DNA of 64,000 nucleotides from Fictibacillus solisalsi (GTDB taxonomy: Bacteria > Bacillota > Bacilli > Bacillales > Fictibacillaceae), in contig NZ_FNHW01000001.1 of the NCBI RefSeq assembly GCF_900103485.1, positions 2,501,057 to 2,565,056 of the forward strand. Reading direction: 5' to 3'. Below are positions 30,146-58,087 of the stretch, one piece after another (the stretch's first letter is position 1; every line of letters starts with the position of its first letter). A program made the position numbers and the translations under genes. The notes beneath the pieces were generated by a model that saw nothing but the letters and a program-made list of their open reading frames with translations, did not search any database and was not told the origin of the DNA.

Positions 30146-30307
30146 TTTTTAGCCCAAAAAAATAAATGACTACTTTTTAAATTTAGTTCTACCCTCATCA
30201 TAAGACATTTCAATTATTTTGACAACATAGAATTTTCTTTCTTTTTTAAAAGCTTTTTGTCATAGTTAAATGGTAAAAAGTTTCCTCTATTGAAAGGAAG
30301 TGGCATG

Positions 30308-31186
30308 ATGTCCATAAAACTTAGTGTTCTTATTCTGCATGGGATCGGCAATCAAGATGAAACCTATGCCGACGACTTTATGAAAGCACTCCGCAGCCAC
30401 TTTGCAAAAAATATTGCCTCCCTCCACCCTGCCCCAGGATCACAGGTGGAGATGGTGCCCGTTTATTGGGGTGGCGTTTTTAATGAACGGGAGGACGAAT
30501 TATGGGCAAAGGTCAATAAGGAAAATACGTTAAACTATGCCTTCCTTCGTCAATTTGTTATTCGTTTTTTCGGTGATGCCATTGCTTACCAGCCATCGCC
30601 CGTTTCATTTCCACATTTGAATCCAAACTATGAAAAAGTGCATGAAGCGGTGGCTTCCGGCATGAACAAGCTTCGGGAAAAGACAGGTGATCTATCCCCT
30701 CTTACCGTTGTTTCCCACAGTCTTGGCACGGTGATCGCCAGTAACTATTTTTATGATCTGCAATATCTTCAAGAAAAGGTCCCTGAAGCCATTAAGCAAT
30801 TAAAATCGGATACTCCTCTGGAAAATGGAGAAACCCTTGCCAATTTTTACACCCTGGGAACTCCTATGCCTTTATGGACCCTCAGGTATAACGACTTTGA
30901 TAAGCCGATTGAAGTCCCTTCTCCTCAACTCAAAAAACACTTTCCCCACTTAGACGGGGAATGGCTCAACTATTATGATCAAGATGACGTAATTGCCTTC
31001 CCCTTGAAATCATTAAATGAAGTGTACAACCGGTTGGTGAAAAAGGATATTGAGGTTAGCAGTGGAAATATTTTTACCTCCTGGTCCCCATTCTCCCATA
31101 TCTTTTATTTCAAGACCGACAAAATCATTAAAGAAATCGCACGTTCTCTCTCCGAACAATGGAAAATGGTGAATAACGTTTCATAA
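30308..31186 (+). CDS. Alpha/beta-hydrolase-like protein, lipase/PGAP1-type
   Basis: About 292 residues from the ATG at 30308 (AAGGAAG seven bases upstream; an ATG one codon earlier is also possible). The N-terminal HGIGNQ and the nucleophile elbow SHSLGTVIASNYFYD (serine about 150 residues in) mark an alpha/beta hydrolase without a signal peptide. Substrate unknown. It is divergent from fadN and followed by hairpins shared with the 3-hydroxybutyrate operon's regulatory region. Confidence 0.78.
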   Translation: MSIKLSVLILHGIGNQDETYADDFMKALRSHFAKNIASLHPAPGSQVEMVPVYWGGVFNEREDELWAKVNKENTLNYAFLRQFVIRFFGDAIAYQPSPVSFPHLNPNYEKVHEAVASGMNKLREKTGDLSPLTVVSHSLGTVIASNYFYDLQYLQEKVPEAIKQLKSDTPLENGETLANFYTLGTPMPLWTLRYNDFDKPIEVPSPQLKKHFPHLDGEWLNYYDQDDVIAFPLKSLNEVYNRLVKKDIEVSSGNIFTSWSPFSHIFYFKTDKIIKEIARSLSEQWKMVNNVS

Positions 31187-31207
31187 TTTTCCGAAAAGCC
31201 GGAACCC

Positions 31208-31225
31208 TTTCCGGTTTTCCGGAAA
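31208..31225 (+). promoter_or_regulatory. Candidate activator site 1 (distal) for the sigma-54 promoter
   Basis: TTTCCGGTTTTCCGGAAA, a perfect 7-base inverted repeat, forms the core of a larger perfect 16-base inverted repeat (31199-31234, CCGGAACCCTTTCCGG and its complement, loop TTTT). No T run follows directly, so it is not simply a terminator. A near copy lies 69 bases downstream. Confidence 0.6.
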
Positions 31226-31232
31226 GGGTTCC

Positions 31233-31257
31233 GGTCTTACTAAGACCCTTGTTTTTT
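31233..31257 (+). terminator. Terminator after the alpha/beta hydrolase gene
   Basis: Short stem GGTCTT / AAGACC followed by CTTG and six T. Confidence 0.65.
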
Positions 31258-31276
31258 AAAAAGAAAAGATAAAGTA

Positions 31277-31294
31277 TTTCCGGTTTCCCGGAAT
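31277..31294 (+). promoter_or_regulatory. Candidate activator site 2 (proximal) for the sigma-54 promoter
   Basis: TTTCCGGTTTCCCGGAAT repeats the distal site with two base changes and keeps the 6-base inverted arms TTCCGG/CCGGAA. Its centre is about 73 bases upstream of the -24 GG, a usual distance for sigma-54 enhancer sites. Confidence 0.6.
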
Positions 31295-31356
31295 TATTGG
31301 AAGCTTAAATTGTTCACACATCGTTCAACTCTTTATTCCACAGGTTGAATTAGCTT

Positions 31357-31372
31357 TGGCATGAAACTTGCA
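31357..31372 (+). promoter_or_regulatory. Sigma-54 (SigL) promoter of the 3-hydroxybutyrate operon
   Basis: TGGCATGAAACTTGCA matches the consensus TGGCAy-rN4-TTGCw, with GG at 31358 and GC at 31370 (exact -24/-12 spacing). The transcript would start near 31383, just before the AAAAAGGAGTG ribosome site of the first CoA-transferase gene. It needs an AAA+ activator. Confidence 0.9.
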
Positions 31373-31410
31373 AGACTACTGACCGAGTCTGAAAAAGGAG
31401 TGAACATCAC

Positions 31411-32100
31411 ATGAAGCCTGTATTATCTTCGTTTCAAGAAGCTGTTAAAGAAATACCAGACGGATCCGTTCTAATGGTGGGCGGTTTTGGACTGGTTGGC
31501 ATTCCGGAAAATTTGATTCTTTCTCTTGTTGAAGCAGGAACCAGGGATTTGACCATTATTTCAAATAACTGCGGAATAGATGACTGGGGGCTTGGCCTGT
31601 TGCTGAAAAACAAGCAGATCAAGAAAATGATTGGTTCCTATGTGGGAGAGAACAAAGAGTTTGAACGCCAGGTGCTGGCTGGAGAGATTGAAGTGGAACT
31701 CATCCCCCAAGGAACATTGGCCGAGAGAATTCGGGCAGGCGGCGCAGGCATTCCGGCTTTTTATACACCTGCTGGAGTAGGAACGCCTCTTGCTGAGGGC
31801 AGGGAAATCCGTACATTTAATGAAAAGGAATACATGCTGGAGACAGGGCTTCAAGCCGACTTCAGTTTGATCCGTGCCGCGAAAGCAGACAAAATGGGGA
31901 ATCTGGTTTATCACAAAACTGCCCGAAATTTCAATCCCATGATGGCTGCAGCCGGAAAAGTTACGATTGTGGAGGTTGAAGAGCTATGTGAGACAGGAAG
32001 TTTGGGTGCCGACGAGATCCATACTCCTGGCATATATGTTCAATCGCTAATCGTTGGGATACAGGAAAAAAGAATTGAAAAGCTGACTGTAGCAAACTAG
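31411..32100 (+). CDS. scoA: 3-oxoacid CoA-transferase subunit A
   Basis: 229 residues. Alpha subunit of a succinyl-CoA:acetoacetate (or AtoDA-type) CoA-transferase, which activates acetoacetate. Motifs: [15 protein letters not shown] (N-terminus), ISNNCG and [17 protein letters not shown]. First gene of the sigma-54 operon. Whether succinyl-CoA or acetyl-CoA is the donor cannot be fixed from sequence alone. Confidence 0.93.
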
Positions 32101-32118
32101 AAGATTGGAGGAAAGCAT

Positions 32119-32796
32119 ATGAGTACAAAAATACTAGACAAAAAAGCAATTAGAGAAAAGATTGCAAAACGAGCTGAGCAGGAAATTGAAAGCGGTTTCT
32201 ATGTCAATTTGGGAATCGGCATGCCTACCATGGTTGCAAATCACCTTTCAGCAAACAAAAGCGTGGTCCTACAATCTGAAAACGGGCTTCTTGGGATCGG
32301 TCCTTATCCTGCTGAGAAAGACGTTGATCCTGACTTAATTAATGCCGGGAAAGAGACAATCACCGCCATCAAAGGTGCTTCTTATTTCGACAGCGCGGAA
32401 TCCTTTGGCATGATTCGAGGGGGACACATCGATATCGCCATCCTTGGCGGTATGGAGGTGTCAGAGAAAGGCGATCTTGCAAACTGGATGATTCCAGGAA
32501 AAATGATCAAAGGAATGGGCGGCGCGATGGACCTTGTTCATGGGGCAAAACAGATCATTGTCATTATGGATCATGTCAGCAAGGACGGTACAAGCAAAAT
32601 CTTAAAGGAATGTACTCTGCCCCTTACCGGCAAGGGTGTTGTCAACCGAATCATTACTGAACGAGCCGTCATTGATGTGACTGAAGATGGGCTGTTGCTT
32701 GCAGAAGTAGCCACAGGCTACACCATTGAGGACATCAAGGAATGCACCGATCCGTCTCTCATTATTTCAGAGCACATTAAAATGGATGCCTATTAA
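32119..32796 (+). CDS. scoB: 3-oxoacid CoA-transferase subunit B
   Basis: 225 residues. The catalytic glutamate is E54 in [12 protein letters not shown], which forms the CoA thioester. Other landmarks: [13 protein letters not shown] and [18 protein letters not shown]. Begins 18 bases after scoA with TTGGAGGAAAG upstream. Confidence 0.95.
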
Positions 32797-32847
32797 AGCT
32801 TTTTTAAAAAGAAAACTTGGTCATGAAAAGTATAGGGGGTTTTTGTT

Positions 32848-34242
32848 GTGGATATTATTATTATCTTACTGGCGCTGTTTTTTCTTATGTTTGTCGCCTA
32901 CCGTGGCTTTAGCGTTATCCTGTTTGCGCCAATTGCGGCCCTGTTTGCCGTATTGTTAACCGACCCGGGCCATGTTCTACCGTTTTTCTCGGGTGTATTT
33001 ATGGAGAAAATGGTTGGGTTCATTAAACTGTATTTCCCGGTATTCTTACTGGGTGCAATTTTCGGAAAAGTTATTGAAATGTCCGGCTTTGCAAAGTCCA
33101 TTACGAGAGCTGTCATTAAACTCATTGGACCAAGCCGGGCCATGCTCGCCATTGTTCTGGTTGGCGCCATCCTGACATATGGCGGGGTTTCACTATTTGT
33201 AGTAGCTTTTGCTCTTTATCCTTTTGCTTCCGAACTTTTCAAAATGGCAGACATCCCGAAACGCTTAATACCAGGAACCATTGCTCTTGGGGCGTTTACG
33301 TTTACGATGGATGCTTTTCCTGGTACTCCACAGATACAAAACATCATCCCCACCACCTTTTTCAAAACCGATACATGGGCTGCCCCATGGCTTGGATTGA
33401 TTGGCGGACTGTTTGTTCTCGGCGTCGGAATGACGTATCTGGAATGGAGAAGAAGGAAGGCTGCAAGAGCGGGAGAGGGCTATGGGACCGGCCACATCAA
33501 TGAGCCGGATCAGATTCCTGACGAGAACCTCCCCAACGCATTTATTGCCATATTGCCGCTCCTTCTTGTAGGAATCTTCAATAAAGTATTCACCTCTATG
33601 ATTCCTAAATATTACGGAACCGTTTTTGATTTTTCGAAGATCGGAATGAAGGATGTTCCGCCTGTTGAAATCCCTAAACTCGCAGCGGTTTGGGCGGTGG
33701 AAGGTGCTCTTGTCATCGGAATTGTAACCGTTCTTATTTTTGCCTTCAAGCAGGTCAAAACAAACTTTAATGCCGGTATCAACCTCTCCATCGGTGGGGC
33801 ATTGCTTGCAACCCTGAATACAGCTTCTGAATACGGATTTGGTGGCGTCATCGCTGCACTGCCTGGCTTTGCATCTGTTAATAAAGGAATGGCAGACACC
33901 ATCCAGGATCCCCTCGTAAACGAAGCAGTGACAACAACCGCCCTGGCTGGTATTACGGGTTCTGCATCAGGTGGCTTAAGCATCGCGCTAGCGACCATGG
34001 GTGATAAATATGTGGAACAGGCAGATAAACTCGGGATCGATCCTGAAGTGCTTCACAGGGTCGCATCCATGGCGAGCGGAGGAATGGATACCCTTCCTCA
34101 TAATGGAGCGGTAATTACCCTTCTTGCTGTTACAGGTTTAACACATAAACAATCATACTTGGACATATTCGCCATGACGATCATAAAAACCATTGCCGTC
34201 TTTTTTGTTATCGGTCTCTATTACCTGTTTGGAATTGTTTAA
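32848..34242 (+). CDS. GntP-family permease, probably for 3-hydroxybutyrate
   Basis: 464 residues starting with GTG (AGGGGG upstream), about 12 hydrophobic helices. GntP/CitMHS-like signatures: TYGGVSLFVVAFALYPFA, PGTPQIQNIIPTTFF and HRVASMASGGMDTLPHNGAV. The family transports gluconate and small hydroxy or keto acids. The operon context (CoA-transferase and hydroxybutyrate dehydrogenase) points to D-3-hydroxybutyrate or acetoacetate. Confidence 0.85.
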   Translation: MDIIIILLALFFLMFVAYRGFSVILFAPIAALFAVLLTDPGHVLPFFSGVFMEKMVGFIKLYFPVFLLGAIFGKVIEMSGFAKSITRAVIKLIGPSRAMLAIVLVGAILTYGGVSLFVVAFALYPFASELFKMADIPKRLIPGTIALGAFTFTMDAFPGTPQIQNIIPTTFFKTDTWAAPWLGLIGGLFVLGVGMTYLEWRRRKAARAGEGYGTGHINEPDQIPDENLPNAFIAILPLLLVGIFNKVFTSMIPKYYGTVFDFSKIGMKDVPPVEIPKLAAVWAVEGALVIGIVTVLIFAFKQVKTNFNAGINLSIGGALLATLNTASEYGFGGVIAALPGFASVNKGMADTIQDPLVNEAVTTTALAGITGSASGGLSIALATMGDKYVEQADKLGIDPEVLHRVASMASGGMDTLPHNGAVITLLAVTGLTHKQSYLDIFAMTIIKTIAVFFVIGLYYLFGIV

Positions 34243-34285
34243 GAATAGAGAGAGAAATAGTCATACACCAAAAGGAGAATCAGAA

Positions 34286-35068
34286 ATGGCATTACTTGAA
34301 AATAAAGTTGCATTCATCACAGGCGCCGCAAGCGGGATCGGACTGGAAATCGCCACTGATTTTGCAAAAGAAGGAGCAAGAGTGGCCATTTGCGACCTGA
34401 ACGCTGATAAAGCAGAACGCGCGGCTGCCTCCCTTAAAGAACAAGGCTTCAAAGCCATTGGCATTGCATGTGATGTTAGTAACGAAGACGCCTTAAAGCA
34501 AGCCATGGATGACACCGTCAGTGAGTTTGGCAGGCTGGATGTGGTGATCAACAATGCTGGCCTACAGCATGTGTCACCATTGGAGGAATTCCCGACAGAG
34601 AAGTTTGAGCTTCTGATCAAGGTGATGCTCACTGCTCCGTTCATGGCTACAAAACATGCTTTTCCCATTATGAAAAAGCAAGGCTTTGGACGTATCCTTA
34701 ATATGGCATCTATCAACGGACTCGTTGGATTCGCCGGGAAAGCCGCTTATAACAGCGCCAAGCACGGTGTCATCGGCTTAACTAAAGTAGCAGCACTTGA
34801 AGGGGCTCAACATGGCATTACCGTCAATGCGATCTGCCCCGGTTATGTCGACACTCCGCTTGTACGGAACCAGCTGTCAGATCTGGCCCGCACGCGCAAC
34901 GTGGAGCTTGAAAAAGTACTTGAAGAGGTCATCTATCCATTAGTTCCGCAAAGACGATTGCTTACTGTTAAAGAAATCTCGGATTATGCCATCTTTTTGG
35001 CAAGCGATAAAGCCGCTGGAGTGACCGGGCAGGCCGTCGTAATCGACGGCGGTTATACAGCTCAATAA
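34286..35068 (+). CDS. bdhA: D-3-hydroxybutyrate dehydrogenase (SDR family)
   Basis: 260 residues from the ATG at 34286 after AAAGGAGAA; the longer frame overlaps the permease. Classical SDR: TGAASGIG (12-19), NNAG (89-92) and the catalytic S142, Y155, K159 in NMASINGLVGFAGKAAYNSAKHG family region. NLQHVSPLEEF and the C-terminal GQAVVIDGGYTAQ fit 3-hydroxybutyrate dehydrogenases. Oxidises 3-hydroxybutyrate to acetoacetate for the CoA-transferase. Confidence 0.92.
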   Translation: MALLENKVAFITGAASGIGLEIATDFAKEGARVAICDLNADKAERAAASLKEQGFKAIGIACDVSNEDALKQAMDDTVSEFGRLDVVINNAGLQHVSPLEEFPTEKFELLIKVMLTAPFMATKHAFPIMKKQGFGRILNMASINGLVGFAGKAAYNSAKHGVIGLTKVAALEGAQHGITVNAICPGYVDTPLVRNQLSDLARTRNVELEKVLEEVIYPLVPQRRLLTVKEISDYAIFLASDKAAGVTGQAVVIDGGYTAQ

Positions 35069-55021: not shown

Positions 55022-56398
55022 TCACTCCACCCCATACTTTTTCAGCTTGTCATACAAGCTTGTCTTGCCGATACCAAGGGTTTTGGCTGTTTTCAGCCGG
55101 TCGCCATGGTGCTCCCTTAGCGCAGCCTGCAGCACCCGCCTTTCTGTTTCCTCCAAGATCTCCTTCAGGCTCCGTTTTCCCAGGGACAGAACGGAGACTT
55201 CTTTTAAATAATCTGGAAGGGCATCCTTTGTAATCCGATCGCCATGGCACAAATGCACGGCGGCTTCGATAACGTTCTCCAGCTCGCGCGCGTTGCCGGG
55301 CCAATTGTGGCTGTCAAACAAACCGGCTACCTCTTCCTGGAGGCCAAGGATCCGCCTTCCGGAGCGCTTATTGATTTTGGCAAGAAAATGCCGGGATAGC
55401 TCTTTGATATCTTCCGGCCGGTCACGCAATGGAGGGATGTTCACCTGAATCACATGAATCCGGTAAAACAGATCCTCCCGAAACCGCTGCTCTTCCACCA
55501 TTTTCTCCAGCGGCTTATTGGTGGCCGCGATCACACGCACATCCACCTTTATCGGCTTCACGCTGCCGACCGCTTCCACTTCCCGATCCTGAAGCACGCG
55601 CAGCAGCTTCACCTGCATGTGAAGGGGCATATCACCGATCTCATCGAGAAAAATAGTCCCCCCGTCAGCCAGTTGGAATTTGCCAAGCTTTCCTCCCTTT
55701 TTGGCGCCAGTAAATGCTCCTTCCTCGTAGCCAAACAGCTCCGATTCCAAAAGATGTTCCGGGATGGCACCGCAATTGACCTTGATGAAAGGCTTATTCG
55801 AGCGTTCACTTAATTGATGGATGCTGTGGGCAAACAGTTCCTTGCCCGTCCCGCTTTCACCCCGAATCAGCACCGAAACGTCACTGGCTGCTACTTTTTT
55901 GATCCGCTCTTTCAAAACCTTTATCTCAGATGATGAGCCTACAATATCATGAAGAGAATATTTTGCGCCGGTATTCTCCTCCTGAACACTCCGGTAATAT
56001 TCCAGTTCCGTTAACAGATTTTTGATATGGGAATTCATGGTCCGCCACTCCTCAGTATCTCTAAAGGTAACGGTTCCGACTGCACCAACAACCTTGCCGG
56101 CCTGGCGGATGGGAAGACGGTCCGCAATCATATAATTGCCTTCAATGAACTGCAGATCGGCAATCTCCTCTTTTCCAGTTCTGGCCACAATATGCATTCT
56201 CGTATTTTCAATCACATCGGTCACATGTCTGCCGACCGATCCGTGCTGATCCACTTTAATAAAATCGCAATATGCCTGATTTAAGTATGTGATGATGCCA
56301 TTAATGTCAACGACAACCACACAATGAAAGGCATTATCAATAATCGTTTTCAGGAGTTCATCTTTAAACTGAAGTTCTGTAATCAACACGTCCGACAC
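55022..56398 (-). CDS. PAS-AAA+-Fis sigma-54-dependent transcription activator
   Basis: 458 residues. N-terminal PAS-like sensor (about 10-115, [20 protein letters not shown]), AAA+ core (about 150-380) with Walker A GESGTGKE (180-187), the sigma-54 contact loop GAFTGA (227-232), Walker [10 protein letters not shown] (248-256) and the arginine-rich FREDLFYRI, then a Fis-type HTH (about 415-457, [20 protein letters not shown]). No receiver domain, so it senses a ligand rather than a kinase. It follows the acyl-CoA ligase gene by about 55 bases. Its target is unproven; the sigma-54 operon at 31.4 kb is a candidate. Confidence 0.95.
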
Positions 56399-56452
56399 CT
56401 CTACTCTTTCATGAAGAAGCCGCCTTTGCTAAAGCAGAGGCAGCCTGATGGT

Positions 56453-58087
56453 TTATTTCGTCTCTACTCTACCTTCACCTGCATAGTGATCACGAACCTG
56501 GTCTCTGAGGGCACGCTTTAAAAACTTGCCGACCGATGTTTTCGGAATTTCATCCATAAACAAAACATCGTCGGGAATCCACCATTTGGCAAACTGCGGT
56601 TTTAAATACTCTTTGATGTCTTCCTTAGTAACCTGGCCACGTTTTCCTTCCTTCAACACCACACAAGCAATCGGCCGCTCCTGCCACTCTGGATCAGGAA
56701 CCGCGACCACGCATGCCTCGAATATATCCTCATGAGCGATGAGAGCGTTTTCAAGATCAACAGAAGAAATCCACTCTCCCCCGCTCTTTATCAAATCCTT
56801 CGTGCGGTCTACAATTTTTATTGTCCCTTCCTCATCCACTGTGACAACATCACCGGTATGAAGCCAGCCATCTTCAAATGCGGAAGACGGCTCTTCACCG
56901 TAATATTCATCAGCGATCCAATTGCCCCGGAGAAGAAGCTCTCCCATTTCATTGCCATCCCATTTAACGTCTCCGTTTGCGCCTTTTATCTTCATTTCCA
57001 CACCCGGTACTAGGTAGCCCTGCTTCGCCCGGATATTCAGCTTATCTTCATTACTGAGATCCTGCTGGTAGCTTTTAATTCGGGAAAAAACCACAAGTGG
57101 ACTGGTTTCTGTCATACCATAAGCGTGTGCAAACGGGATGTTATGCTTGGATTCAAACGCTTGGATCAGTCCTTTAGGGGCGGCTGAACCCCCGCATAAA
57201 ATACAGCGAAGACTGCTTGTATCGTATTCTCCTTCATCAAGCACTTTCAGCAATCCGAGCCAGATCGTCGGCACCCCTGCAGTAATAGTGACTTTCTCCT
57301 GTTCAATCAGATCCGCAAGTAGCTTTGGAGTAAACTGTGGTCCCGGAAGCACTTGGGTGGTTCCAAACCAGACGGCGGCAAACGGAAGACCCCAGGCGTT
57401 CACATGGAACATTGGAACAACAGGCATACAGATATCGGATTCTGAAACACTTCCTCCATCCACATGCCCGAGCGCCATACTATGAAGAACAATGCCGCGG
57501 TGGGAATAGACAACACCCTTTGGATTTCCTGTGGTGGCTGATGTATAGCACATGCCCGCTGGTTCATTTTCATCGATATCCGGATTAAAAGCAAAGTTCG
57601 GATCACCTTCATCGAGCAAGGCTTCATAATGATAAAGCGGCTCTAAAGACGATTCGGGAAGTTCCGGCTCATCGGTCATCAGGATAAACGATTGCACACC
57701 TGTAATCTCTTCCCTGATTGCTTCAATCAGCGGCAATATATCCTGATCAATCAAAAGCACTTTGTCTTCTGCATGATTGATGATATACGCAATATGAGCA
57801 GGTGACAAGCGGATGTTGATCGTATGTAGAACAGCTTCTGCACCGGGAATCCCAAAATAAGCTTCGAGATGGCGGTGATGGTTCCAAGCCAGTGTTCCTA
57901 CCTTGTCTCCCTTTTGGACACCTATTTTTTTTAGCGCACTGCTAAGCCGCCTTGTACGATTGGCAATTTCACGGTATGTAAATGTTCGAATTCCAGAAGC
58001 CGTCCGGCTGACCACCGTTTTTTTAGGGAAAAACATTTCAGCATGCTCCATCATCGCTGTAACGCGTAAAGGCACATTCATCATCAT
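56453..58087 (-). CDS. Acyl-CoA synthetase (AMP-forming, AlkK-like)
   Basis: 544 residues. Adenylate-forming enzyme: phosphate loop YTSATTGNPKGVVYSHRG (181-198), AYGMTETSP, DGWLHTGD and the C-terminal IPKTSVGKFLKRALRDQ with the catalytic lysine. The sequence resembles medium- and long-chain fatty acyl-CoA ligases of the AlkK type. GGGGAGG upstream. It is the first gene of a two-gene unit with the sigma-54 activator; a GG-N10-GC pair upstream (58122-58137) is too poor to call a sigma-54 promoter. Confidence 0.92.
   Translation of the reverse strand: MMMNVPLRVTAMMEHAEMFFPKKTVVSRTASGIRTFTYREIANRTRRLSSALKKIGVQKGDKVGTLAWNHHRHLEAYFGIPGAEAVLHTINIRLSPAHIAYIINHAEDKVLLIDQDILPLIEAIREEITGVQSFILMTDEPELPESSLEPLYHYEALLDEGDPNFAFNPDIDENEPAGMCYTSATTGNPKGVVYSHRGIVLHSMALGHVDGGSVSESDICMPVVPMFHVNAWGLPFAAVWFGTTQVLPGPQFTPKLLADLIEQEKVTITAGVPTIWLGLLKVLDEGEYDTSSLRCILCGGSAAPKGLIQAFESKHNIPFAHAYGMTETSPLVVFSRIKSYQQDLSNEDKLNIRAKQGYLVPGVEMKIKGANGDVKWDGNEMGELLLRGNWIADEYYGEEPSSAFEDGWLHTGDVVTVDEEGTIKIVDRTKDLIKSGGEWISSVDLENALIAHEDIFEACVVAVPDPEWQERPIACVVLKEGKRGQVTKEDIKEYLKPQFAKWWIPDDVLFMDEIPKTSVGKFLKRALRDQVRDHYAGEGRVETK

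Follow-up and report, generated by a model that had tools for sequence, protein, structure and literature searches.

In Fictibacillus solisalsi, the operon scoA-scoB-permease-bdhA, located on the plus strand at 31411-35068 of the 64,000-nt stretch of DNA analysed here (the window), is very probably transcribed by the sigma-54 polymerase from a promoter at 31357-31372 and switched on by the sigma-54 activator encoded at 55022-56398, which would bind three dyads in front of that promoter. The dyads share the motif TTCCR-N6-YGGAA and start at 31189, 31209, and 31278. As predicted from sequence comparison, the operon is an orthodox sigma-54 regulon whose spacing is helically phased. The elements concerned are the following:

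31189-31204: site 1, predicted distal enhancer palindrome, TTCCGAAAAGCCGGAA (TTCCG-N6-CGGAA); held-out matrix score 19.9 bits, third of the window; 10/10 arm letters in the window genome and five congeners
31209-31224: site 2, predicted distal enhancer palindrome, 20 bp from site 1; held-out matrix score 23.8 bits, best of the window; arms conserved
31278-31293: site 3, predicted proximal enhancer palindrome, 69 bp from site 2 and 79 bp start-to-start from the -24 element; held-out matrix score 21.6 bits, second of the window
31357-31372, plus strand: sigma-54 -24/-12 element, TGGCATGAAACTTGCA; zero mismatches, core invariant in the window genome and five congeners
31411-32100, plus strand: scoA, 3-oxoacid coenzyme A (CoA)-transferase subunit A; TIGR02429 above cut-off
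32119-32796, plus strand: scoB, 3-oxoacid CoA-transferase subunit B; TIGR02428 above cut-off
32848-34242, plus strand: GntP-like permease; PF02447 weak (E 3e-4, below cut-off), adjoins bdh in relatives
34286-35068, plus strand: bdhA, 3-hydroxybutyrate dehydrogenase; TIGR01963 and NF009093 above cut-offs
55022-56398, minus strand: sigma-54 activator with PAS, AAA+ (GAFTGA present), and Fis-type helix-turn-helix (HTH) domains, predicted binder of the three sites; PF00158 and PF02954, orthologue synteny

Family profile searches agree with the positions and identities given for the four operon genes in a preliminary description of this DNA. The permease has no NCBIfam match; its substrate is probably 3-hydroxybutyrate or acetoacetate, judging from gene context. 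The gene upstream of the operon (30290-31186) matches neither Pfam nor NCBIfam. The sigma-54 promoter proposed in the same description is present without mismatch, its core is unchanged across six species (10/10 positions in an alignment of the six upstream regions of the genus), and the genome encodes sigma-54 (one PF04552 match, E 2.2e-64). Taken singly, the patterns are not beyond chance, and only the combination and the conservation of promoter and dyads carry weight. A promoter pattern with at most one mismatch is found 3 times in the window, 2.98 being expected by chance, and is not significant alone; strict sigma-54-like matches number 24 in the genome. The genome contains 14 copies of the dyad TTCCG-N6-CGGAA, three within 105 bp here and eleven elsewhere, against 8 of its backward-read control, which places single copies near chance. 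With a matrix trained outside the genus of the window, the three sites rank first to third among all positions of the window, the next match reaching 10.6 bits. The 350 bp preceding each of the 23 remaining strict sigma-54-like matches of the genome hold nothing comparable, 7.3 bits being the highest score.

Two of the three sites had been noticed before, as repeats 69 bases apart; both are perfect 17-mers (31208-31224 and 31277-31293) and the sole perfect copies in the 4.8-Mb genome. The third copy at 31189-31204 had been overlooked. The 73 bases reported between the nearer repeat and the -24 element correspond to the distance from centre to GG, the actual gap from site 3 being 63 bases. Of the enhancer-pair layout suggested at the time, the conserved upstream sites at a sigma-54 promoter remain, with three sites in place of a pair.

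The preliminary description proposed looking for the repeats before scoA homologues in related genomes. Thirty loci encoding ScoA relatives were compared, six of them from the genus of the window (G000 and G002-G006) and 24 from outside it. Lack of conservation would have spoken against the proposed reading, but the outcome favours it. The three sites and the promoter are kept in the five congeners that have the operon: in all six genus loci, the dyads are found near positions -222, -202, and -133 relative to the start codon, with the -24/-12 element at -53 or -54. Arm letters are 10/10 in every one of the 18 dyads, and the six central letters vary. In the six-region alignment, which displaces site 3 by one base in two rows, 25/30 positions of the dyad arms are invariant, compared with 5/18 of the centres and 27/133 of the other upstream positions. 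In a seventh congener (G001), neither an activator match at E <= 1e-110 nor a close copy of the operon scoA turned up; its remaining scoAB genes have no dyad or promoter in the 9 kb of sequence covered. Upstream of scoA at the 24 loci outside the genus, no sigma-54 element or perfect dyad is found within 400 bp and a single dyad has one mismatch; lacking both elements, the best scoAB matches of other family members were rejected as orthologues of the promoter region. The same holds for a second scoAB copy (G000:C4:1719660-1720343, L228), whose ScoA is 79% identical to the operon copy and which has no sigma-54 element or dyad in the 8 kb of sequence covered. Most relatives carry the site array instead before permease-bdh or scoAB-permease-bdh genes that adjoin the activator gene.

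It is this adjacency that connects the operon with the protein encoded at 55022-56398, which had been named as activator for no stated reason beyond its location in the window. The assignment is now well supported by co-conservation and synteny, which point to the conserved upstream sites as those of this activator: in relatives, orthologues immediately precede these genes, and the same sites occupy the space between. A PF00158 search of the F. solisalsi genome finds 11 strong sigma-54 activators and six weak matches. Nine strong activators have a strict sigma-54 site no more than about 4 kb away, and a tenth is arranged in tandem with one of the nine; the window activator is the only strong one without such a site within that distance, the nearest being the scoA promoter. 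In 6/6 genus genomes, activator and scoA are separated by 21-31 kb (in the window, by about 23 kb). No dyad remains behind the activator gene in the genus genomes, which suggests that the sites serve the operon.

At E <= 1e-150, 141 of the 397 genomes sampled from the order encode the activator. An orthologue survey covered 160 regions, composed of 154 activator loci outside the genus (150 genomes) and the six genus scoA promoters; the loci were drawn from among the matches of activator searches. The 20 neighbourhoods inspected first typically run from the activator through two dyads, a single dyad, and a sigma-54 element to permease-bdhA or scoAB-permease-bdhA. The first recognised gene after the activator at the 154 loci encodes the permease (79), ScoA (48), BdhA (12), or an acyl-CoA synthetase (12), and three loci have none; at the 151 loci with a neighbour, it lies on the same strand and starts 194-630 bases past the activator stop codon. 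Where permease, scoA, or bdhA comes first (139/154), a sigma-54 element and at least two dyads lie between in 137 cases and three dyads in 130. Halobacillus litoralis, Oceanobacillus piezotolerans, Virgibacillus litoralis, and Brevibacillus dissolubilis (44% activator) have the adjacent arrangement. Among all 160 regions, 152 hold a sigma-54 element by the pattern used, accompanied by three sites in 141 and by two in 11. The 152 regions hold 411 sites of at least 14 bits and their shuffled versions hold none, the matrix having been trained on these same regions, so that the held-out test is that of the window only.

The arrangement can also be recovered from DNA pattern alone. When the 397 genomes were scanned with a bare pattern (one dyad, then a gap of 37-67, then a -24/-12 element), 76 matches appeared in 74 genomes, compared with 1 in the backward control. 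In 64 cases, the match follows the activator gene on its own strand at a distance of at most 400 bases. The remaining 12 comprise the window operon (1), other permease and bdhA operons (8), a site behind a 40% activator relative (1), and two without recognised neighbour. A stricter two-dyad pattern matches 22 times in 21/397 genomes (control 0), in all 22 cases behind the activator as judged by eye. Six of the eight other permease and bdhA operons (L427-L429, L432, L433, L436) are arranged in another order, permease-bdhA-activator: the dyads precede the permease gene at different spacing, and a 47-59% identical activator comes after the operon; no activator lies within the stretch for the other two. 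The gene of the 40% identical relative, at L430 (G381:C59), is followed by the dyad and a sigma-54 element.

The spacing of the sites is restricted to discrete values. Counts refer to the 141 three-site regions, leaving out 19/160 (8 without sigma-54 element, 11 two-site). Sites 1 and 2 are 19-22 bp apart, at 20 bp in 100 regions. The start of site 3 lies 55-58 bp from the -24 element in 44 regions, 66-70 in 53, and 78-82 in 37, with none at 59-65 or 71-77 and the remaining seven at 98-202. Among the 64 pattern matches behind activators, the three classes hold 17, 21, and 26 and nothing falls between, although the pattern admitted 53-83. With one representative for each of 36 genera, the best period is 11.3 bp at a concentration of 0.82, a value reached by none of 2000 nulls made by jittering the genus representatives, without a tree (all at or below 0.52); this test uses 137 of the 141 regions, four beyond 110 being excluded. 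Periodicity is also seen, less sharply, in the distance between sites 2 and 3 (0.51 at 11.5; observed scan maximum 0.53 vs a null maximum of 0.52). The classes suggest a face-of-helix rule acting over a short loop. Dependence on the helical face is known from nif promoters. The rule is thus not new in kind; its derivation from evolution may be.

In the mechanism proposed here, sigma-54 RNA polymerase would transcribe scoA-scoB-permease-bdhA from 31357-31372, and the PAS-AAA+-HTH activator would bind the three dyads. The distal dyads, 20 bp or about two turns apart and hence on the same face of the DNA, would hold two activator dimers side by side, and the distance of the third dyad to the -24 element would be free to vary mainly by whole helical turns. 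The PAS domain may sense the substrate, likely 3-hydroxybutyrate or acetoacetate, upon which the bound activator would oligomerise, reach the polymerase by way of a short loop, and bring about promoter opening. Induction would yield uptake and oxidation of 3-hydroxybutyrate and CoA activation to acetoacetyl-CoA.

Several observations weigh against this scheme. Activator and operon are separated by about 24 kb in the window, so their pairing rests on the relatives. Eight of the 160 regions lack a sigma-54 element by the pattern used, and 3/154 activators lack any expected neighbour gene. The spacing classes do not accommodate the seven three-site regions at 98-202, 6/11 two-site regions at 96-170, or four of eight related operons that fall outside the orthologue group, with pattern distances of 59, 59, 61, and 75; in a fifth (G384, L431), the nearer dyad lies about 47 bases from the promoter. 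The acyl-CoA synthetase loci hold 4/8 of the element-less regions and 4/11 of the two-site regions, a clustering of exceptions which implies that the regulon differs there. At these 12 loci (L223, L225, L226, L341, L346, L353, L358, L370, L372, L379, L380, L381), the activator precedes an acyl-CoA synthetase gene and not permease-bdh, and target or substrate may have changed; four of the genomes concerned (G060, G102, G329, G360) have a second activator copy.

The three spacing classes might alternatively be old promoter lengths inherited through shared ancestry, with no helical constraint, an explanation which is unlikely, though not negligible. The species are related and the spacing test takes one representative per genus without a tree, yet six genera contain more than one class and several families two or three, with jumps of about 11 or 23 bp and none between. 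The operons outside the orthologue group fall partly off the classes, as shared ancestry would allow; the jittered null on genus representatives nevertheless reached the observed concentration in 0/2000 trials.

It is improbable that the palindromes bind another regulator, be it a repressor or a different activator of the genome, and that the protein encoded at 55022-56398 controls something else, e.g., the adjoining acyl-CoA synthetase. In the window, the activator gene is convergent with the distant operon and lies directly downstream of an acyl-CoA synthetase gene, and elsewhere it precedes one at the 12 loci described above. However, the surroundings of 55022-58087 in the window contain neither a dyad with at most one mismatch nor a strict sigma-54 element, the 137 other loci have sites and sigma-54 element between activator and operon, and the upstream sequences of the other 23 sigma-54-like matches attain at most 7.3 bits, compared with 19.9-23.8 here.

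The distal pair has a further property. A perfect 16-base inverted repeat reported earlier around site 2 is real and represents a local elaboration that is not kept whole in the five congeners; it is composed of the right half of site 1, the entire site 2, and an additional half site. A second hairpin follows it:

31199-31234: longer inverted repeat with 16-base arms (31199-31214 and 31219-31234) and a TTTT loop; identified from sequence, fold z = -5.0 for RNA 31187-31260, not whole in congeners
31233-31257, plus strand: hairpin of terminator type, with T run, located between sites 2 and 3, which may belong to gene 30290-31186; in a consensus scan of 31000-31500, 2 found vs 0.8 expected from shuffles, weak alone

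In the relatives, site 1 and the reverse complement of site 2 have on average 13.6/16 letters alike (for the two pairs that include site 3, 11.4 and 11.8), and the span of the distal pair folds to -18.4 kcal/mol on average vs -4.6 when shuffled. A T run of at least five follows site 2 in 74/141 regions, site 1 in 18, and site 3 in 19. Site 1 starts 2-48 bases past the start of the activator stop codon, at 40 or fewer in 134/135. It looks as if the distal pair often doubles as terminator of the activator gene in relatives; in the window, the gene before the sites is 30290-31186 and not the activator. We tentatively propose, at slightly less than even chances, that two unusual properties have been preserved in many genera of the order: spacing would be quantised in whole-turn steps of about 11.3 bp which record the helical repeat of the enhancer-promoter loop in vivo, and the distal pair would serve at the DNA level as enhancer of the operon and at the RNA level as terminator of the activator gene, insulating the operon from read-through. 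That the palindromes do not act as enhancer at all and only form terminator or attenuator hairpins in the RNA of the upstream gene is hardly credible despite the strong fold of the distal pair in the window, the features of sites 1 and 2 just described, and the fit of window site 3 to a loose terminator pattern on the minus strand, since site 3 shares the sequence, yet seldom precedes a T run, the arms are preserved letter by letter with variable centres, as for a protein site, and helical phasing to a promoter would be meaningless for a terminator.

Boxes resembling the catabolite-responsive element (cre) of CcpA, with at most one mismatch to the consensus, were encountered in 52/152 regions of the relatives vs 2/152 shuffled regions, so that many relatives are likely to be subject to glucose repression. 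In the window, the best cre-like match has two mismatches, and catabolite repression was dropped as part of its design.

Sigma-54 control of acetoacetate use, CoA-transferase genes included, is exerted in Escherichia coli by AtoC, a two-component response regulator. The window protein differs in having a PAS domain and scores 349.1 bits against the AtoC equivalog NF008469, below the cut-off of 714; it likewise falls short of the PrdR equivalog NF041552 (456.6 bits, cut-off 795). AtoC of E. coli (acetoacetate) is listed in PMC3162934, excerpts of which also describe a deletion in the GAFTGA element of YplP of Bacillus subtilis. Identity of the window protein with YplP was rejected by comparison with that description, the GAFTGA element being intact in the window. 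Closest in layout is GabR-gabT of Bacillus thuringiensis, which likewise combines a PAS-AAA+-HTH activator, a sigma-54 promoter, and a catabolic operon, the latter induced by its own substrate, with a protected region a short distance upstream (PMC4279683). The GabR site differs, featuring a 21-bp repeat with inverted copies 5 bp apart in a 96-bp protected stretch, and other genes are controlled (PMC4279683). The AhcR and CrbR regulons of Clostridiales also involve sigma-54 activators with sites derived from genome comparison and comprise genes of butyrate/butanol pathways, among them atoE-hbd-cotX for AhcR. Their sites are TGT-N10-12-ACA, mostly 100-250 bp upstream (PMC6615313), in contrast to the TTCCR-N6-YGGAA type of the window, where the proximal site mostly starts 55-82 bp from the -24 element. 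Among the eight activators of B. thuringiensis HD73, the excerpted text names none for the genes of the operon (PMC4428206). A 2025 survey lists the CoA-transferase subunits COG1788 and COG2057 as enriched under sigma-54 in Clostridia and Bacilli (PMC12316311), which puts the promoter link partly in print; in the portions of that survey covered, no activator, binding site, or spacing was found for CoA-transferase genes. Activator and site were likewise not found in excerpts of PMC4428206, PMC4279683, PMC6615313, PMC3162934, PMC2743287, PMC12316311, and PMC4524646. No publication was found that names either in its title or the opening of its abstract, within a search that left subscription literature mostly outside its scope, and a word search for a B. 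thuringiensis regulator called BdhR returned no such paper.

A sigma-54 activator present in 141 of 397 sampled genomes thus gains a predicted target, a predicted binding site, and a likely substrate class. The spacing classes would represent natural variants of one enhancer at whole-turn distances and could serve as a test set for the effects of loop length and helical phase in sigma-54 activation. For the order as a whole, the use of 3-hydroxybutyrate would be linked to sigma-54, and the turnover of poly-3-hydroxybutyrate (PHB) may possibly be linked to it as well.

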